A stretch of DNA of 64,000 nt, from IMG/VR virus record IMGVR_UViG_3300034101_004323, positions 1 through 64,000 of that record; one strand, 5' to 3'. The notes below the pieces were generated by a model. It was given only the letters and a program-made list of their open reading frames with translations, searched no databases and had not been told where the DNA came from. Positions 1 through 29,032 of the stretch are shown piece after piece (position 1 is the stretch's first letter; each line of letters opens with the position of its first letter). A program made the translations under genes and the position numbers. This stretch comes from a virus.

Positions 1-1
1 T

Positions 2-406
2 AATCAAGGTTACCAAGGAGAACAAGGTTATCAAGGTAATGATGGTAATCAAGGTTTCCAAGGAGAACAAGGTTATCAAGGTAATGATGGTAATCAAGGT
101 TTCCAAGGAGAACAAGGTTATCAAGGTTTCCAAGGAGAACAAGGTTATCAAGGTAATGACGGTAATCAAGGTTACCAAGGAGAACAAGGTTACCAAGGCG
201 ATCAGGGTTACCAAGGTAATGACGGCAATCAAGGTTACCAAGGTGATCAGGGTTACCAAGGCGATCAGGGTTACCAAGGAGATCAAGGTTACCAAGGTAA
301 TGACGGCAATCAAGGTTACCAAGGTGATCAAGGTTACCAAGGAGATCAAGGTTATCAGGGAAATGATGGTAATCAAGGTTTCCAAGGTGACCAAGGCCCG
401 CAAGGC
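2..406 (+). repeat. Collagen-type Gly-X-Y coding repeat (9-nt period)
   Basis: Nine-base units of the type caaggttac / caaggagaa / caaggtaat recur without interruption, with a higher-order block (NDGNQG followed by YQG or FQG units) repeated about six times. The units differ mostly at third codon positions, as expected for selection on protein. The array probably continues upstream of the window. Confidence 0.9.
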
Positions 407-547
407 TCATGCCCTTCGTGTATTGTAAGCGACACAACAGGAATAACAGGAGCCAGTAATATTACAAATATTGTTCAACTTAGTCAAACTAATTATGATA
501 GTATAAGTAGTCCCGATCCAAATACATTATATATAATCAATGATTAA
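2..547 (+). CDS. Collagen-like phage tail fibre protein, 5' truncated by window edge
   Basis: The frame opening at base 2 is uninterrupted to TAA at 545-547 and encodes Gly-X-Y triplets (GYQGEQ, GNDGNQ, GDQGYQ) for about 135 residues, followed by a short non-repeat end with GSCPSC and the closing motif YDSISSPDPNTLYIIND. That ending resembles the YDal-dpnTLYiI tails common at the end of phage fibre proteins. Collagen-like repeats in phages usually form trimeric stalks in tail fibres, so a fibre or receptor-binding role is likely. The start lies upstream of the window. A second open frame at 39-428 gives only Lys/Val/Ile/Met-rich repeats and is a shadow of this one. The next gene starts 10 bases later and also looks like a tail component. 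Confidence 0.85.
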   Translation, partial: NQGYQGEQGYQGNDGNQGFQGEQGYQGNDGNQGFQGEQGYQGFQGEQGYQGNDGNQGYQGEQGYQGDQGYQGNDGNQGYQGDQGYQGDQGYQGDQGYQGNDGNQGYQGDQGYQGDQGYQGNDGNQGFQGDQGPQGSCPSCIVSDTTGITGASNITNIVQLSQTNYDSISSPDPNTLYIIND

Positions 548-1250: not shown

Positions 1251-2495
1251 ATGAAATTTTCTCTTATAACTCCCACACATAAAAATACTTCATATATACA
1301 AGAATTATATCAATCTATTACTAAACAAACCTATCAAAATTGGGAATGGATTATATATATCAATGGATCTGCAACGCATGATCATTTTAATTTTTTAACA
1401 CAAGATAATAGAGTTAAAATATATTGTGACTATTCTAATAATACTAATGTAGGATATCATAAAAACAAAGCATTTAATTTAGGTACCGGAGATATTTTAG
1501 TAGAAGTTGATCATGATGATATCTTGTTACCAAAATGTTTAGAGAAACTAAAAGAAGCATATGAGAATCATCCTGATGTTGGATTTGTATATTCTGATAA
1601 TGCTAAACTTAACGAGAACTTTAAACCGTATAACACAGCATACGGATGGAAACACCAAAAAATATCCTATAATGGAAAAAGCTTATGGGTTCCTCAATCA
1701 TTTGGAGCAACAAGTCATTCAATATCATTAATATGGTTTGCACCAGATCATGTTAGATCATGGAGAAAAGAAATTTATCATACTGTTGGTGGCCATAATA
1801 ATAACTTGTCTGTACTAGATGATCAAGAATTAATAATAAGAACATATTTAATTACTAAATTTTATCACATACCAGAACCATTATACGTTTATAGGATACA
1901 TGGAGAAAATACATGGCTAGAAAGGAATAAAGAGATACAGACAGGAACAGTACAGCTTAGGAATAAATGGATTCAAAATCTTGCAGAAAGAGATGCTCAA
2001 TTAAAAAATCTAAAAATGATAGATATAGGAGGAGGTATAGATGGTAGAAAAGGATACATATCAATTGATCAAGAGGGATCAGATATTATTTGTGACTTAA
2101 ACGATGGAATACCAATGCCAGATAATTCCTGCTATGTTGTTAATGCTAGTCATATAATAGAGCATTTACGAGATCCATATAAAACAATGAAAGAAATACA
2201 CAGAGTTTTAGCTCATGGGGGATGGGCTTTTATACAAGTACCATCAACAGACGGTAGAGGAGCATTTCAAGATCCTACACACGTTTCGTTCTGGAATCAA
2301 AATAGCTTTTGGTATTATACTAAAGAACAACAAGCCAGATATATTAGAAATAATACTATTAAATTTCAAGCTTTCAGATTAGAAACAGACTATCCTTCAG
2401 ATTGGTGGAAAATAAATAATATTCCCGTTGTTTTTGCTGATTTGATAGCAATTAAAGATCAAAATCCTAGATTTCCAGGGTTATTAGAAATATAA
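1251..2495 (+). CDS. Glycosyltransferase family 2 fused to a SAM-dependent methyltransferase
   Basis: This is a 414-aa protein. Residues 1-240 look like a GT-A family 2 glycosyltransferase: the opening FSLITPTHKNTSYIQELYQSI is the usual N-terminal strand and helix, and VDHDDILLPKC supplies the DxD-type metal and nucleotide-sugar site. Residues 255-360 look like a class I methyltransferase: DIGGG (motif I), a following acidic strand end (SIDQEG), NASHIIEHL and LAHGGWAFIQVPS, as in Methyltransf_11-type enzymes. The fusion could add and then methylate a sugar. It sits among virion and lysis genes rather than in the 29.6-36.1 kb glycan island. The substrate is unknown. Start ATG 1251 follows a 73-base non-coding gap without a strong Shine-Dalgarno site. 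Confidence 0.8.
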   Translation: MKFSLITPTHKNTSYIQELYQSITKQTYQNWEWIIYINGSATHDHFNFLTQDNRVKIYCDYSNNTNVGYHKNKAFNLGTGDILVEVDHDDILLPKCLEKLKEAYENHPDVGFVYSDNAKLNENFKPYNTAYGWKHQKISYNGKSLWVPQSFGATSHSISLIWFAPDHVRSWRKEIYHTVGGHNNNLSVLDDQELIIRTYLITKFYHIPEPLYVYRIHGENTWLERNKEIQTGTVQLRNKWIQNLAERDAQLKNLKMIDIGGGIDGRKGYISIDQEGSDIICDLNDGIPMPDNSCYVVNASHIIEHLRDPYKTMKEIHRVLAHGGWAFIQVPSTDGRGAFQDPTHVSFWNQNSFWYYTKEQQARYIRNNTIKFQAFRLETDYPSDWWKINNIPVVFADLIAIKDQNPRFPGLLEI

Positions 2496-2559: not shown

Positions 2560-2916
2560 ATGATTAAACCTGGTTATAAAACTAGCGAATTTTGGTTTAC
2601 AGCTGTCAGTTTTATATTTAGTGGCTTATATTTAATTGGTTTGTTTGGTGAAGATAATCAGCAGAAAGAAGATTTAATTAGGGATGTTAGTCATGGTGTA
2701 GAAAGTATTATACTAATCGGTGGACAATTAGCTATATTATTTAAATATCTTAATGGTCGAAAAGAAATTAAAAAAACATTTTATTCTTCTACTAGTCCTA
2801 GTGACGTAACAGAAAATACTAAACCAAATGATCCAATTCCAGTCCCAAGTAGAAAATCTAAAAGCAGATCTAGAAAATCTAATTCAAGAAAATCAAAAAA
2901 TACTAGGAGAAGTTAA
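2560..2916 (+). CDS. Holin-like small membrane protein
   Basis: This 118-aa protein opens MIKPGYKTSEFWFT, a start seen in small phage holin-like membrane proteins. It has two predicted membrane segments (about residues 11-29 and 46-62) separated by an acidic loop. The C-terminal third is a low-complexity Ser/Arg/Lys tail (RKSKSRSRKS type), as often found at the cytoplasmic end of holins. AAGGAA lies about 8 bases before the ATG. The papain-like protease gene 1.5 kb downstream could be the matching lytic enzyme, but that pairing is inference. The last 89 bases overlap the next open frame, which is unusually long for this genome. Confidence 0.55.
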   Translation: MIKPGYKTSEFWFTAVSFIFSGLYLIGLFGEDNQQKEDLIRDVSHGVESIILIGGQLAILFKYLNGRKEIKKTFYSSTSPSDVTENTKPNDPIPVPSRKSKSRSRKSNSRKSKNTRRS

Positions 2917-3250
2917 AACAGTAGCTATTGCGCAAGCATGGAAAATTCTCCAATTAGCAATAGCCAAAATTATACAAAATATTGAGAATAAAAGTAAAAC
3001 TCTAGCAGGAAAAGATAAAAAAGAAATAGCAATGATATTATTATCACAGTTTTACGATAGTGTTTTTATAGCTATAGATATTCCTCTTGTTCCTACTGTT
3101 GCAGAATCTATTATACATAGGTATACAAAAAGTTTTTTGATGATTTTAGTTAGCTCAAGTATAGATGCAATGGTTGCAACATTTAGAGAAATTGGTGTTT
3201 TTTCATCAAAAGATTATGTATCGTCAGTACTAGTAAATGAAGTGCCATAA
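2828..3250 (+). CDS. Hypothetical protein overlapping the holin-like gene (start uncertain)
   Basis: The frame gives 140 aa from ATG 2828. The first 28 residues form a coiled-coil-like stretch (VENLKADLENLI) inside the holin-like gene's basic tail. The rest alternates amphipathic and hydrophobic helices, including FVAIDIPLVP-like and SFLMILVSSSID segments that could be membrane-associated. No Shine-Dalgarno site precedes ATG 2828. AGGAGA at 2905-2910 sits downstream, but no ATG, GTG or TTG follows it in this frame, so the start is unresolved. Either the long overlap is real, or a frameshift joins the two frames into one protein of about 230 aa. No family recognised. Confidence 0.5.
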   Translation: MIQFQSQVENLKADLENLIQENQKILGEVKTVAIAQAWKILQLAIAKIIQNIENKSKTLAGKDKKEIAMILLSQFYDSVFIAIDIPLVPTVAESIIHRYTKSFLMILVSSSIDAMVATFREIGVFSSKDYVSSVLVNEVP

Positions 3251-3267
3251 ATATAAAGGAAAAACAT

Positions 3268-3630
3268 ATGAACGTTACACAAAGTTTTGAAGAATTTTCT
3301 AAAGGAATCGGTGCCATGGATTTGGCTCTTTATGCTGGTGTTGGTATGATAATTTGGATTCTATTCAAAGATAAACTGAGTCCAGTACAAACAGCCTTAC
3401 TAAAATTATTTAATAAGGATCAATTCTCTATTCCAAGTATAGACACAAAAAGCCCAATAGTAGTTTCAAAACCATCAGAAGATGTATTTTTCCAATTGGT
3501 AGCAAGCTGGAAACAAACACGAGACTTGGCTGTTAAAAGCGGATGCTCAGAAGCTATCAAGGTGGCAGATCAAATGTTTCCGCATCTATCCCCTAATGCT
3601 TGTTCATCAGATAAAGGAAAAGTTCTATGA
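3268..3630 (+). CDS. Hypothetical single-pass membrane protein
   Basis: This 120-aa protein has one strong transmembrane helix near residues 17-33 (MDLALYAGVGMIIWILF) preceded by a short acidic N terminus. A soluble C-terminal domain follows, with SKPSEDVFFQLVASWKQTRDLAV. The downstream protein carries the related phrase VKPSEDLKDESDAI, hinting that the two share a short motif or interact. AAAGGAAAA precedes ATG 3268 at usual spacing, and the stop overlaps the next start by four bases (ATGA), so the two are translationally coupled. It belongs to a run of small membrane proteins around the holin-like and protease genes. Function unknown. Confidence 0.6.
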   Translation: MNVTQSFEEFSKGIGAMDLALYAGVGMIIWILFKDKLSPVQTALLKLFNKDQFSIPSIDTKSPIVVSKPSEDVFFQLVASWKQTRDLAVKSGCSEAIKVADQMFPHLSPNACSSDKGKVL

Positions 3631-4124
3631 AAGATAATAAAATTATACTATTAAGTATTGCTAGTATTCTAGTTCTTATTGGCTTAATTAAACCAGACTT
3701 TAATAAATTCTTTCCTTCATCACCAGATACTGTTTCAGTAGAAACTAACAATTTTGTTAAACCATCAGAAGATCTAAAAGATGAATCTGATGCTATAATA
3801 AATGCTTTATCTGTAGACAAGGATAGAAAACTTGATGGAAAAAGATTAGCTAGTTTGGCTGGTGATATGGCCACACTGATTGAATTAGACAATGAAAATG
3901 AAGTTATAAAAAATACAGAAGAAATTAGACAAGCAAATAGTCTTATTGGCCCAATGTTAAAATTAAATATATCTGGAAAATATCCAGATCTAAAAACTGC
4001 TTCACAAAACATGATAGTATCTGTTATTGGAGATGATAGTGTTCCATTAAATAAAGATCTAAGAAAAAAAGCTGTTATTGCTTTTAAAACTTTAGCATGG
4101 TCATATTATGAGGGTAGTAAATAA
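3627..4124 (+). CDS. Hypothetical membrane-anchored protein
   Basis: This 165-aa protein starts with an uncleaved-signal-like helix (IILLSIASILVLIGLI, residues 5-20) and continues as a charged, helical soluble domain with DLKDESDAI, DKDRKLDGKRLASLAGDMATLIEL and a C-terminal AFKTLAWSYYEG. The topology (short cytoplasmic N terminus, periplasmic or surface helical domain) would fit an accessory lysis protein or an envelope anchor. I do not recognise a family. It overlaps the preceding gene by 4 bases and its stop shares a base with the protease start (TAATG), so the three are one translational unit. Confidence 0.6.
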   Translation: MKDNKIILLSIASILVLIGLIKPDFNKFFPSSPDTVSVETNNFVKPSEDLKDESDAIINALSVDKDRKLDGKRLASLAGDMATLIELDNENEVIKNTEEIRQANSLIGPMLKLNISGKYPDLKTASQNMIVSVIGDDSVPLNKDLRKKAVIAFKTLAWSYYEGSK

Positions 4125-5047
4125 TGTCAAGATATTCATCAGAAGAACTATATAATAATTATCGCAAAGGATTTAGTGGCTGTTTATGGGAGCAGCACGT
4201 ATTTGATCATCTAATGGAAAATAGTAAATATGCGTTATTTGGTGATGCTAATAAAAAAATTAAAAGTAGTGGAAAAGGTAAATTATCAACACCATATAAA
4301 AGTGTGTTAAAATTTGACAAAAAAGCTTATGAAGAAAGACAAACTACTGGAGATTGTGTGTCTCATGGAACACGAAACGCTTGTGATATTAGTAGAGCGG
4401 TTGAGATAGATGTCAATAATGAAAGAGAAGCATGGATAGCAAGAGGAGCAACAGAAGCAATTTATGGGGCACGAGGTCACGGCGGACAAGGAATGAGTTG
4501 CTCAAGAGCAGCTGAGTTTGTTAGCAAAAACGGAGGAATATTGTTACGCCAAAACTATAAGGGTGTAGCTGACTTTACAAAATATAATGGTAATCTCGGA
4601 GCAGGATGGGGAGGACGAGGATTGCCAGATCCTGTAATTGATCTTGCAAATGACCATCAAATTAAAACCGTTAGTCTTGTTAGAACAATTGAAGAAGCTC
4701 GTGATGCTCTTGCTAATGGTTATGGATTAGCAGTATGTTCTAATTATGGATTTTCTAATAAAAGAGATAAAAAGGGTATAGCAAATACTAGTGGTAACTG
4801 GGCTCATTGTATGGCTTGGATAGCATGTGATGATACTGGTAGTGAACCATTATTTCTTGTTCAAAATAGTTGGGGTAAATGGAATGATGGTGGTCATCCA
4901 GAATGGGGAAATATTCCTGATGGCTCTTTTCTTATTCGTGCCGAAGTTGCTGCTGGTATGCTAGCAAGTAATGGTAGTTATGCTTTTAGTAATTTTGACG
5001 GCTTTCCAGTACAAAAGCTTCCAGATTATGGATTTACATATTTATAG
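4124..5047 (+). CDS. Papain-like (C1A) cysteine protease
   Basis: This 307-aa protein carries the papain triad in order: Cys78 in QTTGDCVSHG (with Gln73 as likely oxyanion residue), His228 in NWAHCMAW and Asn248 in LVQNSWGKWNDG. The last segment is the hallmark ‘NSWG..WG..G’ motif of the C1 family. There is no signal peptide or long pro-region. The N-terminal 70 residues are Lys- and Ser-rich and could be a short propeptide or targeting segment. It may cut a virion protein, a host protein, or peptide cross-links of the envelope. Its place after a holin-like protein and two membrane-anchored proteins favours a lysis or entry role, but this is inference. A 60-aa antisense frame within it is a shadow. 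Confidence 0.85.
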   Translation: MSRYSSEELYNNYRKGFSGCLWEQHVFDHLMENSKYALFGDANKKIKSSGKGKLSTPYKSVLKFDKKAYEERQTTGDCVSHGTRNACDISRAVEIDVNNEREAWIARGATEAIYGARGHGGQGMSCSRAAEFVSKNGGILLRQNYKGVADFTKYNGNLGAGWGGRGLPDPVIDLANDHQIKTVSLVRTIEEARDALANGYGLAVCSNYGFSNKRDKKGIANTSGNWAHCMAWIACDDTGSEPLFLVQNSWGKWNDGGHPEWGNIPDGSFLIRAEVAAGMLASNGSYAFSNFDGFPVQKLPDYGFTYL

Positions 5048-5059
5048 AAAGATATTATT

Positions 5060-7393
5060 ATGTCAGATGGATTCATAAGAAAAGTAGGAAATAAGTTTTA
5101 TATTAGATATTCAAATGGTGGAGTTTGGTTATACTCTCCATCTACTGGAACATCTCTTACAGAATGTCAATCTTGCTGTCCTATTCAATATTTATCTCAG
5201 TGGGAAGACCCAAATGCTGTTTGTGTAGATAAAAGGCTCGTTCATTCAATTGATTTAAAATCCCCGTACTATATTTTTAAAGGACAACCATTTAATGGAA
5301 CCATTTCGAGCATACCCAAACCAGCTCCATCATCAGCATATAATCTTTTTTGCGGAACCCCTCCTACAGCAAATATTAGTTCAAGAATAACTATTAAAAT
5401 TGCTAACGATCCAGTATTTAGTGGTGTTTACACATTTGATTATAGATATAACAAAAATCCACAATGGCAATATAATAGTTTAGAGAGCGATACATCAGTA
5501 TCAAATTATCAAGATTCGACTAATCCACTATACACTGGTGTTGGTCAAAAATTAATAAGCTTAGAAGAAACTATTTATGAACCGTCATATAAAGGATATG
5601 TTGAATATGCCACAACTGGTGCTGCTGGATCAAATTTGAGCGGAGTATACGCTTTTCCTGCTCAATTTGTATTTTCAATTGTTCAGCCCCCCACAAATGT
5701 AAATGGAATAAATGATGGATTATCTCCAGTATTACCAACAGGAAGAGGCCACAGAGCTGTTATAGGTTTTAATCCTCCTTTAAGATGGAGACATCCATAT
5801 AGCGATTGGGTAGTTGCTGATACTATTGGTCATAATATATTACCTGAAAATTATCCTGTAGGAGTAACAGGAGGAACTGCTCCATCAAAACCTTGGTATA
5901 ATACTAATTATTGTACAGGAATAGCTTCTCAACCATATTCAATTAATATTAGTGGAATAAGTGATAATCCATATGATTTATCAAGCTCCTCATCAAAAAC
6001 CCCGGTTTGCACAGATCTTTCAACTATGGGATTCTCTTATAGAACTTCTGGAGTTGGAGTTCCTTTTGATAGTTCAGCATACGGAGTTTCTATGCTGAAT
6101 CGTTGTACCGGAATCAGATCAGACTTTCATAATTATACATTCACTTATAATAGTAGCAACTATTCTCTTAATGAAACGTCATTATTTAGTCCAAAAGAAT
6201 ATTTAGAAGCATCAGTAGAATTTGATTTTTCTTGCAGAACATCAGGAACAATTTGTTCAGAATTTAATTCTTTAACTCCTGTATCAACAGGATATTCAAC
6301 AATTAGTAATAGTTGTTTTGGATCATATGTTAATGCTGACTTTATGTGTGGAGATAATTTTGCTCATCCTAGCGGAGAATATTTTACAACCGAAGGTATA
6401 GTTGATCTTAGAGTTATTTACTCTGGAATGCCATATCAGGTAGCTTCGGTTCCTCACATTTATCCTATGGTAAAAGCAACAAATTCTACTGGTAATGTTT
6501 ACAAAGCTAATAGTGGACAAATGATTTTTGTTGATTACGATGGACCAATTACTCCTGATGGTTTTAGATCGTGGATAAATTCAGATTTTAATTTTGTAAC
6601 ATTAGATATAAATAATAATATTACTATCAAATGGCCCGGAGTTGATGTATATTGGCAAATTAGGAGTGATGCTATTGTTGTTTCAGGATTAAGTCCTGAT
6701 ACTTTTGGATTCAATGGAACCTACTATCTTGCAAATGTTCTTGATAATAATAGTTATAACTTTTATTCAAAAACTGGTGGAAACAGTTTTCCTAGAATAA
6801 TGGTCGCAGGCGGAGATGTATGGGCACTATCTCAGAATGGTAGTCCTAACTATGAGCTAGGATCCGCAAGCTATCCAAGTCCACCAATAGGAAATTGGGG
6901 CAGTGGTGATGATAACATACCATCTCCAACAACAAGTTATTCTAATAAAACAGCTTGGGCACGAGTTACTCCAGAAGGTGGAGAAGGAAGTAATGTTGGA
7001 GTATATGTTTTTCAAGCAGGATCAACAGAATTTATATCTCAATATTCTTATGATTCTGATGATAATAGATATATTAGTCTTAATGACTCAAATATACAAA
7101 TGAGATTTTCTGTTGATAAATGGCAATTGGGCAAAGTTGAAACTGGCACATTCGTTGTATATTACGAATTAAGCAATGTAACGTGTGGAAATCCAAAATT
7201 TTTGAATCTTTTATTCACAGACTATAGCAGTTTTACATTAGCAAATAATACTTATGCAGCAGTAGAGATTCCTGTAACGTGTAAATCTCAACCTATTGGA
7301 CAATGGAGTGGAGCAAATCTTCCAGGAGACGGAGCAGCAGTATCTATAAAAGATCCGTTGGCTGGCGGTAGTACTGGTTCTATTAATTGTTAA
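5060..7393 (+). CDS. Large structural-looking protein, probably virion surface
   Basis: This 777-aa protein is rich in Ser, Thr, Asn, Tyr, Gly and Pro, has many scattered cysteines (for example QSCCPI and SGTICSEF), and shows no membrane segment after the start. Residues 8-25 (GNKFYIRYSNGGVWLY) look like a beta-hairpin opening, and the rest reads as repeated beta-strands with GxYxF turns, as in virion decorations and adhesins. Phrases such as TFGFNGTYYLANVLDNNSYNFYSKTGG resemble units of beta-repeat phage proteins. No enzyme motif is visible. Translation start at ATG 5060 is 12 bases after the protease stop. It may be a fibre or appendage protein, but I cannot assign it to a named family. Confidence 0.55.
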   Translation: MSDGFIRKVGNKFYIRYSNGGVWLYSPSTGTSLTECQSCCPIQYLSQWEDPNAVCVDKRLVHSIDLKSPYYIFKGQPFNGTISSIPKPAPSSAYNLFCGTPPTANISSRITIKIANDPVFSGVYTFDYRYNKNPQWQYNSLESDTSVSNYQDSTNPLYTGVGQKLISLEETIYEPSYKGYVEYATTGAAGSNLSGVYAFPAQFVFSIVQPPTNVNGINDGLSPVLPTGRGHRAVIGFNPPLRWRHPYSDWVVADTIGHNILPENYPVGVTGGTAPSKPWYNTNYCTGIASQPYSINISGISDNPYDLSSSSSKTPVCTDLSTMGFSYRTSGVGVPFDSSAYGVSMLNRCTGIRSDFHNYTFTYNSSNYSLNETSLFSPKEYLEASVEFDFSCRTSGTICSEFNSLTPVSTGYSTISNSCFGSYVNADFMCGDNFAHPSGEYFTTEGIVDLRVIYSGMPYQVASVPHIYPMVKATNSTGNVYKANSGQMIFVDYDGPITPDGFRSWINSDFNFVTLDINNNITIKWPGVDVYWQIRSDAIVVSGLSPDTFGFNGTYYLANVLDNNSYNFYSKTGGNSFPRIMVAGGDVWALSQNGSPNYELGSASYPSPPIGNWGSGDDNIPSPTTSYSNKTAWARVTPEGGEGSNVGVYVFQAGSTEFISQYSYDSDDNRYISLNDSNIQMRFSVDKWQLGKVETGTFVVYYELSNVTCGNPKFLNLLFTDYSSFTLANNTYAAVEIPVTCKSQPIGQWSGANLPGDGAAVSIKDPLAGGSTGSINC

Positions 7394-7414: not shown

Positions 7415-7576
7415 ATGAAAATTCTAGATAAAATAGCTCTTAATAGATTAATTAGTATAATAAGTAATTTTATATTAAGTCTATTAAAAATATTTGCTCC
7501 TAAGTCTGTAGATAATATAGATATTCCAAAGCCTAAAAGAAAAAAAATATTACCATGGAGAGCCAAAGATGAATAA
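7415..7576 (+). CDS. Small amphipathic/membrane-associated protein (53 aa)
   Basis: ATG 7415 follows AAAGG at 7403-7407 with good spacing and opens a 53-aa frame ending in TAA 7574-7576. The stop overlaps the next start (ATGAATAA), the same junction style as elsewhere in this genome. The first 30 residues are strongly hydrophobic and amphipathic (ISIISNFILSLLKIF), and the end is basic (PKPKRKKILPWRAKDE). This arrangement suits a membrane-associated accessory protein. There is no family assignment. Confidence 0.55.
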   Translation: MKILDKIALNRLISIISNFILSLLKIFAPKSVDNIDIPKPKRKKILPWRAKDE

Positions 7577-7892
7577 ATTATTAGGTTTAATTTTAATTGG
7601 TTCTGTTATTATTGGATCATCAAGCTATAAAGGATCAACAACAGCCGGAATAACCTTAATAGGTGGAATCATTAAAGCTGAACATGTTGATACTACTAAA
7701 AAACATAAAAGAAAAGACTGTCCAGTATGCAAAGGTAAAGGATGGTACATAAGCGGAGATGGTATTAAAAAGGTTGATTGTGGATATTGTGAACCAGAAG
7801 ACAAAGGATCCACAAAAGTTATAGTTCATCCTCCTGTGGTACTAGAACAAAATTGCTCAAAAGGATCATGCAAACCAATTAATGAGAGGTAA
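7569..7892 (+). CDS. Secreted or anchored small Cys-pair protein (DnaJ-zinc-finger-like motif)
   Basis: This 107-aa protein begins with a signal-like hydrophobic segment (MNKLLGLILIGSVIIG) without a lipobox cysteine. A central zinc-binding-type motif follows: CPVCKGKGWY, then CGYC 18 residues later, like one half of the CxxCxGxG zinc centre of DnaJ proteins. Further cysteines lie near the end (NCSKGSCKP). A similar CPQCAGLGYY...CPLC pair is embedded in the 1961-aa tail protein of this window. Zinc binding and an envelope location are inferred. It is translationally coupled to the genes on both sides. Confidence 0.6.
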   Translation: MNKLLGLILIGSVIIGSSSYKGSTTAGITLIGGIIKAEHVDTTKKHKRKDCPVCKGKGWYISGDGIKKVDCGYCEPEDKGSTKVIVHPPVVLEQNCSKGSCKPINER

Positions 7893-7894
7893 TT

Positions 7895-8296
7895 ATGGCG
7901 AAATCAAAAAATGAAAAACAATTAGAAACTATAGCAAAAGATGTTCTAAAAAAAGCTAATATTCCAGAAGATCAAAATTTTGGAAGTATTATCGCTATTC
8001 TTATGATGATTAGTATAATATTAACTGTTATAAGAGTTTTACAGGAATGTAATAAAAATAAAACATCTAACATGACAACACAAGAAATTGGTGGTCTATA
8101 TGGTGAAGAAATTAGATCATATAGCAGAAAAAGGGGTTGGTTCACAAGATTAAGAGTCAAGCGTATTATGCGTCAAAAATTATCAAAAGACGATTATCAT
8201 AAATATGCTATCAAGTTAACTGAAATTTTGTTAGATAAAGGAGAAACTATCACGGACGATGAAGCATTAATACTACTGGAGGCATCAAATGTTTAA
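7895..8296 (+). CDS. Hypothetical protein with one transmembrane helix
   Basis: This 133-aa protein has a charged N terminus, one strong helix near residues 29-47 (SIIAILMMISIILTVIRVL) and a basic C-terminal region with RSYSRKRGWFTRLRVKRIMRQK, followed by an acidic end. GAGAGG precedes ATG 7895 closely, and the stop region overlaps the next gene by 8 bases. The topology suggests a membrane protein with a cytoplasmic basic domain. It belongs to the same run of small membrane proteins (2.5-8.5 kb). No family recognised. Confidence 0.55.
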   Translation: MAKSKNEKQLETIAKDVLKKANIPEDQNFGSIIAILMMISIILTVIRVLQECNKNKTSNMTTQEIGGLYGEEIRSYSRKRGWFTRLRVKRIMRQKLSKDDYHKYAIKLTEILLDKGETITDDEALILLEASNV

Positions 8297-8543
8297 TTTA
8301 TTAGTCTGGTGTGTATATGGTTTATTCGTTGGTAGCATAGCAAAATCAGTTGTTCCGGGAGAAGAAAATTTTGGTTTTATTAAAACAATAGCGTTAGGAG
8401 TAGCTGGCTCATACATGGGTGGAGCAGTATTATATATGTTGGGCGAATACAGTAGTGTTAGTCCTGCGGGCATATTCATGGGAGTTGCTGGAGGAATTCT
8501 AACCCTTGTCGTATACAATAAACTCAACTCAACAACAAGATAA
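8289..8543 (+). CDS. GlsB/YeaQ/YmgE-type (transglycosylase-associated family) membrane protein
   Basis: This 84-aa protein has three membrane-spanning segments and the glycine-rich pattern of the GlsB/YeaQ/YmgE family: W.vyGLFVGSIAK at the start, a middle GVAGSYMGGAV and a final AGIFMGVAGGILTLVVY. Family members are small integral membrane proteins of unknown biochemistry, often linked to envelope stress. In a phage this could modify the envelope or serve as a holin-like or antiholin-like component, which is inference. The last 38 bases contain the TTG start of the next gene and its Shine-Dalgarno site. Confidence 0.7.
   Translation: MFNLLVWCVYGLFVGSIAKSVVPGEENFGFIKTIALGVAGSYMGGAVLYMLGEYSSVSPAGIFMGVAGGILTLVVYNKLNSTTR
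8490..8496 (+). promoter_or_regulatory. Shine-Dalgarno site deciding a TTG start
   Basis: GGAGGAA lies nine bases before TTG 8506 inside the GlsB-like gene. It is the best Shine-Dalgarno match near this junction and supports the TTG as true start of the RgpF-like gene despite a 38-base overlap. Confidence 0.6.
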
Positions 8544-24715: not shown

Positions 24716-26548
24716 GTGACTCATTATTCACTTTTGGATGGGCTCAGTAAACCAGAACAAATAGCTAAAAGATGCCAAAAAATTGGATCTAAGATTTGTG
24801 CTATAACAGATCATGGAACAATATCTGGCGCTGTACAGTTCTATTCGTCTATGAAAAAATATGGTATCAAACCGATATTAGGTTGTGAGCTATATTTATC
24901 TGATAATGATTGTACAATCAAAACTCCTGATAATGCTAAATTAAGCCATTTTATAGTTCTGGCTAAAAACTATAATGGATGGAAATCTTTAATCAAAATT
25001 ATTTCCAGGTCTAATAATCCTGATATTTTTTATCATAAACCAAGAATAGATATAGATACTTTATTGCCATACTTAGATGGTAATATTATAGGTTTTGCTG
25101 GTCATCTTGGATCATTAGTTGCAAATAGCATAAAAAACAATGACTCTAATACTACTATTAATCTTATTCAAAAGTTGAAAGACGGATTTGGAGAAAATAA
25201 TTTTTTTCTAGAAGCTCAATTAATAGACCAAGAACAAAATAAAGATCAAATTGATCTTACAAAAGAAATTAGAAGATTAGCACAAATAACAAATACTAGA
25301 GTAATAGCCACACCAGATGCTCATTATTGTGAATCTGAAGACGCTGTTGATCAGAGGATTCTACTGTGTAATAATCTTAAGACAACATTAACAGATATTA
25401 ATAGAAAACTTATATCTGATGAAGATACTCCTATGTCTTGTTTTTTTAAATCTGATAAGTATCATATTCCTTCTTTTGAAGAAATGAGCGAAATACATAA
25501 TCATAATGAATTAGAAGCAACATTAGAATTAGCTTCTATGTGTGAAGACTATGATATAACCAACAAACCAATGTTGCCATTATTTCAATGTCCAAATAAT
25601 GATAATCCGGACGAATATCTTAGACAGTTATGTAGGAATGGCTGGAAAGATAAAATAGCAAATATTATAGATCAAGATAAACAAGAAGAATACGTTAATA
25701 GAATCAAATACGAACTGTCTGTTTTACAAGGGGCTGGTCTGTCTAGCTACTTTTTAATAGTGCAGGACATAGTTAATTATGTATCGTCTAATGGGTGGTT
25801 ACCAGGACCAGGAAGAGGTAGTGCGGCCGGTTGTCTGGTCTCATATTTGATAGGAATAACTAGTATAGATCCCATCAAAAATGATCTAATATTTGAAAGA
25901 TTCTATAATGCAGGAAGAAATACACAGGATCGAGTGTCCATGCCAGATATAGATGTTGACGTTCCTATTAATAAGAGAGAAGCTGTTGTCGAATATATTA
26001 AAGATAAGTATGGTCATGATAAAGTCTCTCAGATGATAACATACAATACTATGAAAGGGAGAGGAGCACTTAAAGAGGTATTGAGAGTATATGGTAATAT
26101 ATCTTTCGACGAAATGAATAAAATAACAAAGTACATACCCGATGAAGCAAAGATAGCCGATGAATTGCAAGAAATGAAAGAAGAAACAGGAGAGGCTTCT
26201 ATTATACGCTGGGCTTTAGAGAATAATGTTGACAAACTCAAGGAATGGTGTTATTTATTAGATGATGGAACTCTATCCGGACCCCTCGCTAAAAGATTTG
26301 AGCAGGCTATTCGTTTAGAGGGCACTAAGTCTAACCAATCAAAACACGCTGCTGGTGTTGTAATATCTCAAGAAAAATTATCAGAAATATGCCCAATGGT
26401 TTACGATAGTAAAAATAAACAATTAATAGCTGGTATGGAAATGCAAGATCTTGAATCTTTAGGTGTAATCAAATTTGATATTCTTGGAATAGCAATGTTA
26501 GATAAAATCATGAATATTTCTCAAATATTATCATTAGAAGGAGTTTAA
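24716..26548 (+). CDS. DNA polymerase III alpha-like (C family), N-terminal part: PHP and palm
   Basis: The frame gives 610 aa from GTG 24716. It starts at HYSLLDGLSKPEQI, the continuation of PHP motif I, which itself is upstream of an in-frame TAA. PHP domain segments follow (AITDHGTISGA, ILGCELYL). The palm carries the catalytic aspartates: PGPGRGSAAGCLVSYLIG, then MPDIDVDVP, and VIKFDILGIAMLDKI near the C terminus. The protein ends right after the palm, where a normal alpha would continue into the fingers, which are encoded at 27416-29032. GTG start lacks a Shine-Dalgarno site and sits immediately after the TAA, so reinitiation is the simplest model. Confidence 0.9.
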   Translation: MTHYSLLDGLSKPEQIAKRCQKIGSKICAITDHGTISGAVQFYSSMKKYGIKPILGCELYLSDNDCTIKTPDNAKLSHFIVLAKNYNGWKSLIKIISRSNNPDIFYHKPRIDIDTLLPYLDGNIIGFAGHLGSLVANSIKNNDSNTTINLIQKLKDGFGENNFFLEAQLIDQEQNKDQIDLTKEIRRLAQITNTRVIATPDAHYCESEDAVDQRILLCNNLKTTLTDINRKLISDEDTPMSCFFKSDKYHIPSFEEMSEIHNHNELEATLELASMCEDYDITNKPMLPLFQCPNNDNPDEYLRQLCRNGWKDKIANIIDQDKQEEYVNRIKYELSVLQGAGLSSYFLIVQDIVNYVSSNGWLPGPGRGSAAGCLVSYLIGITSIDPIKNDLIFERFYNAGRNTQDRVSMPDIDVDVPINKREAVVEYIKDKYGHDKVSQMITYNTMKGRGALKEVLRVYGNISFDEMNKITKYIPDEAKIADELQEMKEETGEASIIRWALENNVDKLKEWCYLLDDGTLSGPLAKRFEQAIRLEGTKSNQSKHAAGVVISQEKLSEICPMVYDSKNKQLIAGMEMQDLESLGVIKFDILGIAMLDKIMNISQILSLEGV

Positions 26549-26549
26549 T

Positions 26550-26729
26550 ATGAATAAAGTATTTTCTGAATTAGCAGTCGGTGAAAGATTCAATTTAAAT
26601 GGCGTCGATTATATAAAGATACAAGAAGTCAGAGTTAGTTGTTGCAGATCTATAAATGCTCAGGATGCAAATAATCCAGCAACCAAAACATTTGTCCAAG
26701 CTTCAACAACGGTAACTATTAATGCCTAA
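26550..26729 (+). CDS. Small conserved-looking phage protein (59 aa)
   Basis: ATG 26550 starts one base after the polymerase stop, with AGAAGGAG (26536-26543) upstream at normal spacing. The 59-aa product reads FSELAVGERFNLNGVDYIKI, then EVRVSCCRSINAQD and an Ala/Thr/Val end. The ‘l.vGe.F.lnG..y.ki.e..vsccrsiNA’ pattern looks like a class of short uncharacterised phage proteins; I cannot name it. The frame overlaps the next gene by 8 bases. It lies between the two halves of the polymerase. Confidence 0.6.
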   Translation: MNKVFSELAVGERFNLNGVDYIKIQEVRVSCCRSINAQDANNPATKTFVQASTTVTINA

Positions 26730-27423
26730 TTTTCAAAAAATCTGTGTTTTCGACATGGAAACGGACGGGATTAACCCGGATGTTTGCAGTCCAGTACAAA
26801 TCGCTGCTGTTGTTATTGATCCAATAAAATTAGAAATAGTCAAAGATTCAGAATTTAATATAAATCTCAAGCCAGAACTTTTAGAAAATAATACAAGTTA
26901 TGCCTATGAGGACAGTGATGTTTTGGATTTTCATTCCAAAGTTAGAGGATGTTCTAAAGCAGCAATCCTTGACTCATGGAAAAAATACCAGTCACAAGAG
27001 GCTGGCTGGAAAATGTTTGTCTCTTATCTTGAAATGTATCACATTAAATCAAAGGGAAATAAAAAATCCTGCTTTTCTGCACCAATTGCTGCTGGATTTA
27101 ATATTAATAGATTTGATTTGCGTATTATAGAAAGATTAAGTAAAAAACATAATAATCTTAATAAAGAAGGAAGATCTTCTTTATTCTATCCAAGAGATGT
27201 TATTGATGTTATGAACTTATTATTTTATTGGTTCGAATACAATAATGAGTTAAAAAACTATACATTAGATAATCTAAGAGACTATCTTGGCATAAATAAA
27301 GACAATGCTCACGATGCACTAAAGGACGTAAAAGATACAGCAGACATTATGACTAGATTTTTAAAACTACATAGAAGCCTATCTAATAAGGTTAAATTCA
27401 AAGGATCTTTTATAAATGCCTAA
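26722..27423 (+). CDS. DnaQ-like 3'-5' exonuclease (DEDDh), likely proofreading subunit
   Basis: This 233-aa protein has ExoI motif FDMETDG (Asp11, Glu13), ExoII motif AGFNINRFDLRII (Asp132) and ExoIII NAHDALKDVKDTADIM (His197, Asp202). It therefore belongs to the DEDDh exonucleases, as the epsilon proofreading subunit of PolIII. Its gene lies between the two polymerase half-genes, and it overlaps both neighbours (8 bases each). A proofreading role for the split polymerase is the natural inference. With PHP motif I separated from the polymerase, a dedicated exonuclease would be useful. A 76-aa alternative frame inside is a shadow. Confidence 0.88.
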   Translation: MPNFQKICVFDMETDGINPDVCSPVQIAAVVIDPIKLEIVKDSEFNINLKPELLENNTSYAYEDSDVLDFHSKVRGCSKAAILDSWKKYQSQEAGWKMFVSYLEMYHIKSKGNKKSCFSAPIAAGFNINRFDLRIIERLSKKHNNLNKEGRSSLFYPRDVIDVMNLLFYWFEYNNELKNYTLDNLRDYLGINKDNAHDALKDVKDTADIMTRFLKLHRSLSNKVKFKGSFINA

Positions 27424-29032
27424 ATGGTCATTTGATTGTGGATGTTGTTTTGATATAATAGGATCATCTGGAGATAAACATAAGCTTGTCTTCTCTCCCA
27501 AGATAGAATCTATAAACTTATCATGCTCAAAAACATGGGAACTAATTTCTTCTGGCAACACAAAAGGCTGTTTTCAGTTAGAATCTAGGCTTGGGCAAAT
27601 GATGGCAAAAAAGCTTAAGCCTGAAAATATAGAACAATTATCTGGTCTGATTAGTATTTTAAGACCAGGGTGCTTGGAAGCAATTAGAGAAGGTAAAAGC
27701 GTAACCAATCACTATATAGACAAAAAGAATGGATTAGAGTCTATAAATTATTTTCATGAATCATTAGAGAGATCTCTCAGTACAACATACGGAGAGATGA
27801 TATATCAAGAACAAGCCATGTCAATAGCAAAAGATTTGGCTGGATTTGATCTACAAGAAGCTGATTCTTTAAGAAAAGCCATTGGTAAGAAAAAACCTGA
27901 AGAAATGGCTAAAGTTAAACAGAAATTTTTAGACGGAGCAAAAAAACTAGGCGTTGTAAATATACAAGAAGCAGAAGAGATCTTTGGATGGATAGAAAAA
28001 AGTCAAAGATATTCATTTAATAAATCTCACGGAATATCCTATGCTATGAACGCATACCTATCGGCTTATGCAAAAGCTCATTTTCCAGAAGCATTTTTTG
28101 TATCTTATTTAAAATTTGCAAAAGATAAAATAGATCCACAGCAAGAAATAAAAGAGTTAATAAAGAATGCTAATGAAATGGATATCCTGGTTTGCCTTCC
28201 AGATTTAAGACTGAAAAATCCAAATTTTGGCATTTTTAATAACAAGATTTATTTTGGTTTAACAGATATAAAAGGAGTTGGAGATTCTGTCTTCAGTAAG
28301 ATCACTGATATCTGTATAAATATTGATCTTTATAATCTTGGATGGATGGATTTATTATTAAAGCTATTACTTAATATTAATTCGACAGCTGCAAAAGCTC
28401 TTATTTCTAGTGGAGCTATAGATTATGTATCAAAAAATAGAACAGAAATGTTATTTGAGTTCGAAATTATTAGTTCATTAACTAAAAAAGAAATAGAATA
28501 TGCTAGTATGGTTACTCAAACAACAACATCTACTAAAGACATGTTAACCTATTTACTTAACCATAATAAGGTTAATGTAAAACGAAAACAGATAATACAA
28601 AGTTTATTACAGAGTGTTAATAAGCCACCTTATTCTTTAATAGATAAGATAGAATGGCTTGCTGATACTGAAGCTTCTTTGCTCGGAACTGCTATATCCT
28701 GTTCTAAGTTAGATAGTTATGATATAGAAATGACTAATGTAGACTGTAAAACATTTAAAACCAGTAATAATGCTGCTAATATTATTATCGCTGGGGAAAT
28801 TACTAATATTAATGTTGTAAAAACTAAAAAAGGAAAATTACCAGGACAAGAAATGTCTTTTGTTTCAATAGAGGATCAAACAGGGGCCTTAGATTCTGTT
28901 ATATTTTTTCCAGAAACATATGCTAAATATAAGCATTATTTATTTGAAAATAATATTCTTATTTTTATTGGAAATAAAAGCAAAACCAAAGACGGTCTGG
29001 TTGTAGATAAATGTTTCGTTCCCAAGTCTTGA
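27416..29032 (+). CDS. DNA polymerase III alpha-like, C-terminal part: fingers and OB fold
   Basis: This is a 538-aa protein. After a 33-residue N-terminal segment unlike normal PolIII (WSFDCGCCFDI, Cys-rich, possibly a small metal site) it joins the canonical alpha: TWELISSGNTKGCFQLESR, LISILRPGCLEA, YGEMIYQEQAMSIAKDLAGF, LRKAIGKKKPEEM and SFNKSHGISYAMNAYLSAYAK of the fingers. A weak HhH-like region follows, then an OB fold (GEITNINVVKTKKGK, MSFVSIEDQTGALDSVIF). The catalytic aspartates are in the other gene, so the two products must assemble. The stop codon is embedded in the -35 box of the ssb promoter. Confidence 0.9.
   Translation: MPKWSFDCGCCFDIIGSSGDKHKLVFSPKIESINLSCSKTWELISSGNTKGCFQLESRLGQMMAKKLKPENIEQLSGLISILRPGCLEAIREGKSVTNHYIDKKNGLESINYFHESLERSLSTTYGEMIYQEQAMSIAKDLAGFDLQEADSLRKAIGKKKPEEMAKVKQKFLDGAKKLGVVNIQEAEEIFGWIEKSQRYSFNKSHGISYAMNAYLSAYAKAHFPEAFFVSYLKFAKDKIDPQQEIKELIKNANEMDILVCLPDLRLKNPNFGIFNNKIYFGLTDIKGVGDSVFSKITDICINIDLYNLGWMDLLLKLLLNINSTAAKALISSGAIDYVSKNRTEMLFEFEIISSLTKKEIEYASMVTQTTTSTKDMLTYLLNHNKVNVKRKQIIQSLLQSVNKPPYSLIDKIEWLADTEASLLGTAISCSKLDSYDIEMTNVDCKTFKTSNNAANIIIAGEITNINVVKTKKGKLPGQEMSFVSIEDQTGALDSVIFFPETYAKYKHYLFENNILIFIGNKSKTKDGLVVDKCFVPKS

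Follow-up and report, generated by a model that had tools for sequence, protein, structure and literature searches.

The sequence analysed here (the window) consists of the first 64,000 bases of the 84,087-base virus record IMGVR_UViG_3300034101_004323 from IMG/VR. Close to its start is a cassette of small open reading frames (ORFs), several with predicted membrane segments, and among them is a longer ORF at positions 4124–5047 (Table 1). Its product is a papain-fold cysteine peptidase with a putative activity. This peptidase may help to break the host open.

Papain-fold peptidase of the window

The AlphaFold model of the peptidase has a mean predicted local distance difference test score (pLDDT) of 91.8 and a predicted template modelling score of 0.92. 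It is based on 104 aligned sequences; an alignment of 18 rows gave a pLDDT of 44. The closest solved structure is xylellain (PDB 3ois), a bacterial papain-fold cysteine protease, which matches residues 11–292 of the model with a Z score of 21.0 and a root mean square deviation of 3.1 over 234 residues. The sequence identity is 16%, and xylellain differs in that it is a cellular enzyme found outside phage cassettes. The next matches are procathepsins and papain-type enzymes with Z scores of 17–19. The confident model and the solved-structure matches bear out the papain-like protease that a preliminary description, made from the sequence of the window alone, had placed at this ORF.

The likeness to the papain/cathepsin family C1A comprises the fold, the Cys, His and Asn residues, the preceding Gln and an NSWG motif of the papain type. 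The Gln-Cys spacing is 5 in the window peptidase and 6 in papain. The catalytic residues are at the positions named in the preliminary description, Cys78, His228 and Asn248, and these are invariant in 81 of 81 sequences (the window and its 80 nearest loci). An alignment of 101 members picked across divergent groups has these three residues and Gln73 in every sequence.

Pfam family PF00112 matches the window peptidase with an E value of 0.019 and 15.5 bits, which is under the cut-off of 20.7 bits. Among the 104 members, 13 reach E 0.01, the best value being 0.002. The peptidase is therefore classed as papain-fold and C1A-like, outside PF00112. There is no match to the window protein in a PHROG scan. 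A search of PDB sequences with the single peptidase sequence gave no match, and a search with a peptidase profile gave weak matches to cathepsins and ficin (best E 0.33). The hydropathy scan shows no membrane segment in the peptidase.

A query of IMG/VR with the window peptidase yielded 134 relatives, of which 80, with identities of 80–100%, were kept. The relative with 100% identity (L034) is probably the same phage as that of the window. Four pairwise comparisons of the peptidase show nonsynonymous divergence (dN) of 0.06–0.14 versus synonymous divergence (dS) of 0.95–1.38. A chance ORF at this position is ruled out by the 134 relatives found in one scan and by a dN far below dS.

With a profile that includes distant members, 485 of 507 pattern-matching stretches in IMG/VR are relatives of the peptidase, and the phages that carry it range from 35% to 64% G+C. 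No relatives were found by tblastn among 50,697 phage records. A pattern scan of the genomes of 84,980 prokaryote species gave five loci, in bins named Flavobacteriales, SAR202, Lokiarchaeota (two contigs, one bin) and Synechococcaceae; these names conflict and may reflect binning errors. Close relatives were also fetched by terminase (80 loci), and the peptidase is found in 6 of 19 records searched. It is present in all three records of at least 54 kb, one of which (G024) is contig L271; the 13 records that lack it are 26.5–47.8 kb long and may be fragments.

Composition and conservation of the cassette

Three small ORFs lie between the 118-aa (amino acid) ORF and the peptidase, where the preliminary description had counted two anchored proteins. 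The overlapping frames that it described are present: 89 bases are common to the 118-aa and 140-aa ORFs, 4 to the 120-aa and 165-aa ORFs, and a single base to the 165-aa ORF and that of the peptidase. The 118-aa ORF has a hydrophobic segment at residues 11–29 by hydropathy and a second, weaker one at about 46–64 by eye. The N-terminus of the 107-aa protein is hydrophobic and resembles a signal peptide by eye, but the hydropathy scan made no call. The 84-aa ORF resembles the transglycosylase-associated family (PF04226, E 3.1e-5), with 24.5 bits, just under the cut-off of 25.3.

Table 1. Predicted genes of the cassette in the window, with papain-fold paralogues from related contigs. Locus counts refer to the 80 nearest loci, part of whose contigs stop within the cassette; membrane segments were predicted by a simple hydropathy scan.
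Feature	Position	Strand	Remarks
118-aa holin-like protein	2560–2916	+	75/80 loci; C-terminus very basic
140-aa protein	2828–3250	+	predicted membrane segment 67–85; 76/80 loci
120-aa protein	3268–3630	+	predicted N-terminal membrane anchor 14–32; 78/80 loci
165-aa protein	3627–4124	+	predicted N-terminal membrane anchor 6–24; 79/80 loci
Papain-fold cysteine peptidase (predicted)	4124–5047	+	307 aa; Gln73, Cys78, His228, Asn248
777-aa ORF	5060–7393	+	6/80 loci; insertion, outside cassette core
53-aa small cassette ORF	7415–7576	+	52/80 loci
107-aa protein	7569–7892	+	Cys-rich ...GxGW..GDG..C..C motif; 74/80 loci
133-aa protein	7895–8296	+	one predicted membrane segment 31–49; 72/80 loci
84-aa membrane protein	8289–8543	+	two called segments; 72/80 loci
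Papain-fold paralogues	L070:8234–10009, L041:8253–9836, L324:3778–6030 and others		Cys-rich insertions

By nearest peptidase the loci were assigned to group A (window-like, with contigs up to 244 kb), group B (L164-like) or group C (L167-like, with many contigs of 57–61 kb). A representative set of 64 dereplicated loci consists of 28 A, 26 B and 10 C. Single-linkage clusters in this set contain 165-like proteins from 61 loci, 120-like from 53, 133-like from 46 and 107-like from 45. With profiles built from group A, the 165-like protein is detected in 28/28 loci of group A, 25/26 of group B and 8/10 of group C. The 133-like protein is detected in 28/28, 19/26 and 0/10 loci, respectively, the 120-like protein in 28/28, 6/26 and 0/10, the 107-like protein in 28/28, 0/26 and 2/10, and the 140-aa type in 28/28, 0/26 and 1/10. 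At the level of sequence profiles the 165-like protein is thus the sole partner firmly linked to all three groups, as the group-A profile finds it in each. Across the 80 nearest loci the median identity of the peptidase is 83%, versus 48–75% for eight conserved neighbours.

Membrane segments are predicted in 275 of 414 same-strand ORFs near the peptidase versus 132 of 738 at a greater distance in these loci. Of the 64 loci, 32 (15 A, 17 B, 0 C) have the Cys-rich motif of the 107-aa protein in an ORF near the peptidase, and the rest of the 5,662 ORFs scanned gave no match. Six ORFs with this motif, all from group B, also have WC[GP]PC; one of them, from L164, was tested and has matches to thioredoxin families in Pfam. 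A kinship of the 107-like proteins of groups A and B is suggested by the motif and not by the profile. The clean group-A profiles reveal no fusions of 165-like and 107-like proteins; in four ORFs the Cys motif accompanies a 165-like match that is weak (E 0.0006 to 0.08). A 62-aa ORF within the L165 cassette matches four PHROG holin families, with a best E value of 1e-4.

The start of the record cuts into a collagen-like (GYQGxQG)n gene (window 1–545), the end of which is tail-fibre-like by eye, and the cassette is located downstream of this gene. Genes for dCMP deaminase, ribonucleotide reductase, dUTPase and PhoH are found downstream of the cassette. For the 777-aa ORF, Pfam gave nothing and PHROGs a single weak match (E 0.039). 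Large extra ORFs interrupt the cassette at differing points (window 5060–7393; L051:7592–9832; L163:4039–5696). At window positions 1251–2495 a single ORF fuses a family-2 glycosyltransferase with a methyltransferase domain; this ORF is present in only 4 of 80 relatives. Elsewhere in the window there is a split DNA polymerase, in which 24716–26548 and 27416–29032 match positions 51–609 and 611–1054 of phrog_405; an exonuclease-subunit ORF (phrog_192) lies between the two parts. The region 38249–63814 of the minus strand has ORFs of 2394, 1961, 628, 414 and 173 aa with no PHROG match at E 0.01; beside them are ORFs of 1967 and 956 aa.

Occurrence of the module in dissimilar phages

Genome pairs were compared by reciprocal best hits (blastp, E 1e-4). 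Between G001 (244 kb) and G009 (174 kb) there are 60 such hits, among which the peptidase, at 53.6%, has the fourth-highest identity. Groups A and B also have the capsid protein in common, with 67.6% identity. G001 and G014 (60 kb) show three best-hit pairs, i.e., an S8 peptidase (41.6%), the papain-fold peptidase (35.1%) and a third pair that is partial (138 residues, 31%). At this threshold their capsid proteins do not form a pair, but a distant capsid kinship could escape it. G009 and G014 have two pairs, the papain-fold peptidase and the 165-like partner. The group-A capsid protein has at most 21% identity to that of Bacillus phage G, and the group-C terminase has about 25% identity to those of Arthrobacter phages.

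G001 has an exact terminal repeat of 43 bases, and there is none in the 60-kb group-C contigs. Four of the latter (G014, G015, G018 and G020; 59.6–60.3 kb) have gene orders that are circularly permuted relative to one another. Because of this permuted order, the group-C genomes of about 60 kb appear complete. Pfam scans of G001, with part of its 90–600-aa ORFs as input, were read for the best 25 of 48 and the best 25 of 46 families, so that a lysin of this genome may have been missed. One G001 ORF matches PF00574. Another observation in this phage is a protein (one ORF, alignment A7) that matches the Volactin family with an E value of 5.7e-66.

A set of 22 records, comprising 21 relatives and the window's own 84-kb record, was searched for protein families; some of the records are fragments. 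The S8 (subtilisin-type) family is present in 15 of the 22: 7/7 A relatives, 8/8 C records (57–61 kb) and 0/6 B or other records, with no match in the window's own fragment. The S8 gene of G014 (25084–25977; L329:7084–7977) is two small ORFs ahead of the peptidase (26571–27530), and in both G014 and G016 the S8 gene is inside the cassette.

A module that is common to phages with almost nothing else detectable in common fits a host-directed function. The same comparison disfavours a role in capsid maturation, since the peptidase is carried by both G001 and G014, which have no more than three best-hit pairs. The alternative that the preliminary description had kept in view, a protease of virion assembly (prohead or precursor), is thus disfavoured and is considered very unlikely. 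Many tailed phages do process virion proteins, groups A and B hold both the capsid protein and the peptidase in common, and the window cassette is downstream of a tail-fibre-like gene. However, the G001-G014 pairs include no capsid pair, and the peptidase and the major capsid gene are widely separated in G001 (117.5 versus 237.2 kb) and in G009 (60.6 versus 10.0 kb). A ClpP-like ORF, named by eye, is present in the capsid-gene region of G009, although in G001 only about 5 kb separate its homologue from the cassette.

A second papain-fold ORF of 515–750 aa is found near the peptidase in 11 contigs (17 of 323 loci, repeats included). Three aligned paralogues have Gly, Ser and Gly at the position of Cys78 and retain the His and Asn. 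The Cys is also lost in the further paralogues that were inspected by eye, and the Asn is lost in three of these. Recruitment of the fold without catalysis in the paralogue makes the strict invariance of the main copy more telling. The Cys-rich insertions suggest that the long paralogue is an exposed protein, and this lends something to the idea of a virion-borne entry protease that digests a surface protein at adsorption or DNA injection. Such a role is nevertheless highly improbable, as membrane-anchored neighbours are unusual virion parts and the module is common to phages with almost nothing else in common.

Known lysis enzymes and possible functions of the module

In the 22 records there is no match at E 0.01 to Amidase_2, Phage_lysozyme, Peptidase_M15_3, SLT, CHAP or Amidase_3, nor to the peptidoglycan-binding domain PG_binding_1. 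No match to Peptidase_M15_4 is over the cut-off; one sub-threshold match is found in G006 (16 versus 25 bits). NlpC/P60, GH25, GH108 and other lysin families were left out of this search, and the lack of a GH19 match is uninformative because the control was silent too. A Pfam scan of G014 (72 of 80 called ORFs) gave 17 families with no murein hydrolase and with S8 as the only peptidase, and a PHROG scan (53 of 80 called ORFs) gave 14 families with no lysis family. The papain-fold peptidase itself matches no murein-hydrolase family, either in the window (Pfam, PHROGs) or among the 104 members (Pfam, E 0.01). The new type of lysis considered in the preliminary description is strengthened as an idea, but not proven, by this failure to find a known murein hydrolase over cut-off in 22 records.

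Papain-fold domains are present in lysin-like viral proteins of BFVD, i.e., the peptidoglycan-binding-like A0A6J5MXS7, the N-acetylmuramidase A0A8S5PQA2 and mycobacteriophage Lysin A. The likeness to the window peptidase is at the fold level alone (13–16% identity), with weak structural matches for Lysin A (E 1e-3 to 3e-3), and the window family differs as a single domain within a membrane-protein cassette. These proteins raise the prospect of a diverged murein endopeptidase, i.e., a papain-fold endolysin that is released by the holin-like protein and cuts peptide bonds of peptidoglycan in the manner of CHAP or NlpC/P60 enzymes. Both CHAP and NlpC/P60 have a papain-like fold. This is stated for NlpC/P60 in PMC7824862, and PMC6116114 gives mycobacteriophage LysA a predicted papain-family N5 domain, which also speaks for this explanation. 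It would account for the missing endolysin and, since peptidoglycan is a conserved substrate, for the conservation of the peptidase. The full Gln/Cys/His/Asn set and the papain-type top matches, however, suggest protein substrates, and no wall-binding domain is seen. An endopeptidase of this kind is judged unlikely.

The cassette resembles holin-endolysin cassettes in having a signal-less enzyme next to small membrane proteins in overlapping ORFs. It differs in that the enzyme is papain-type, the membrane partners are more numerous and no murein hydrolase was found in the searches. The reading favoured here, a tentative one, is an envelope-directed module of protease and membrane proteins used at lysis. 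The module would attack a protein component of the host envelope late in infection, and would replace a murein endolysin or work with one. Small membrane proteins, one of them holin-like, would accumulate in the inner membrane and make a hole or a docking site. The signal-less peptidase, made in the cytoplasm, would then get to the envelope side and meet exported partners of the 165-aa and the Cys-rich 107-aa types; the thioredoxin motif of the 107-type in some phages could keep the active-site cysteine reduced. Finally, the peptidase would cut envelope proteins and the cell would burst. All four steps are inferred, and so are the topologies of the proteins, the substrate and the time of action.

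This lytic module is supported by the invariant catalytic residues and the fold, by the lack of a known murein hydrolase over cut-off, by the enrichment of membrane segments near the peptidase and by the PHROG holin match in the L165 cassette. Its presence in phages that have almost nothing else in common and the papain-fold domains of lysin-like viral proteins count in the same direction. So does the tail-fibre-like gene upstream of the cassette, as lysis genes often come after tail genes.

Several points weigh against it. The upstream protein described earlier as holin-like is real and conserved (Table 1), but neither Pfam nor PHROGs has a family that matches it at E 0.1. No PHROG holin family is matched by its homologue in G001 or by the 75-aa ORF beside the G009 peptidase. 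No wall-binding domain or signal peptide is seen on the peptidase. Sequence conservation is much stronger in the peptidase than in its partners, whereas endolysins change fast. Because the peptidase is conserved and common to phages of such different G+C content, one conserved substrate fits better than diverse S-layers. The dCMP deaminase, ribonucleotide reductase, dUTPase and PhoH genes downstream mean that the block need not be late. A divergent, unrecognised murein hydrolase could be hidden in these genomes, since they are divergent and few of their families are recognised (17 Pfam families from 72 ORFs and 14 PHROGs from 53). The searches covered these records alone, so an absence of this kind may not be unusual among uncultured phages.

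Some of these features would suit the main alternative, a membrane-tethered processing or host-takeover protease with no part in lysis, which is possible but somewhat doubtful. A cytoplasmic peptidase docked on the anchored partners would then cleave one of them or some conserved membrane protein of the host, e.g., for a superinfection block, membrane remodelling or the switching off of host functions. The partners are anchored and inherited together with the peptidase, which has no predicted membrane segment itself and is highly conserved while the partners vary, as if the substrate were constant. The S8 peptidase is also found in the eight C records and the seven A relatives. Nevertheless, a takeover protease leaves unexplained both the failure to find known murein hydrolases and the holin-family match in one cassette.

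A wider form of the lytic reading is a proteolytic lysis system, in which a papain-type peptidase, often with a subtilisin-type one, and the membrane cassette replace the murein endolysin and open envelopes held by protein (an S-layer or a peptidoglycan-poor wall), the module having spread between unrelated tailed phages. This wider proposal is rather doubtful. In PMC4456609, lysis by a holin and a protease is proposed for cells with an S-layer, and S-layer-degrading enzymes are said to have been unknown. The arrangement proposed there is that of the cassette, which would be a direct candidate, yet the proposal concerns archaeal viruses, and a bacterial-type Sigma70_r4 protein is encoded by one of the present phages. 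No published description of the cassette was found at the title and abstract level in the literature searched.

If the lysis role is true, the peptidase would represent a class of phage-release enzyme distinct from the murein hydrolases. The holin and protease idea for viruses of S-layer cells, as put forward in PMC4456609, would then become testable. The cassette marks large uncultured phage lineages without a relative of the peptidase in 50,697 phage records. Even if the module is non-lytic, its retention by phages with hardly any other recognisable gene in common suggests an important and undescribed step of infection.

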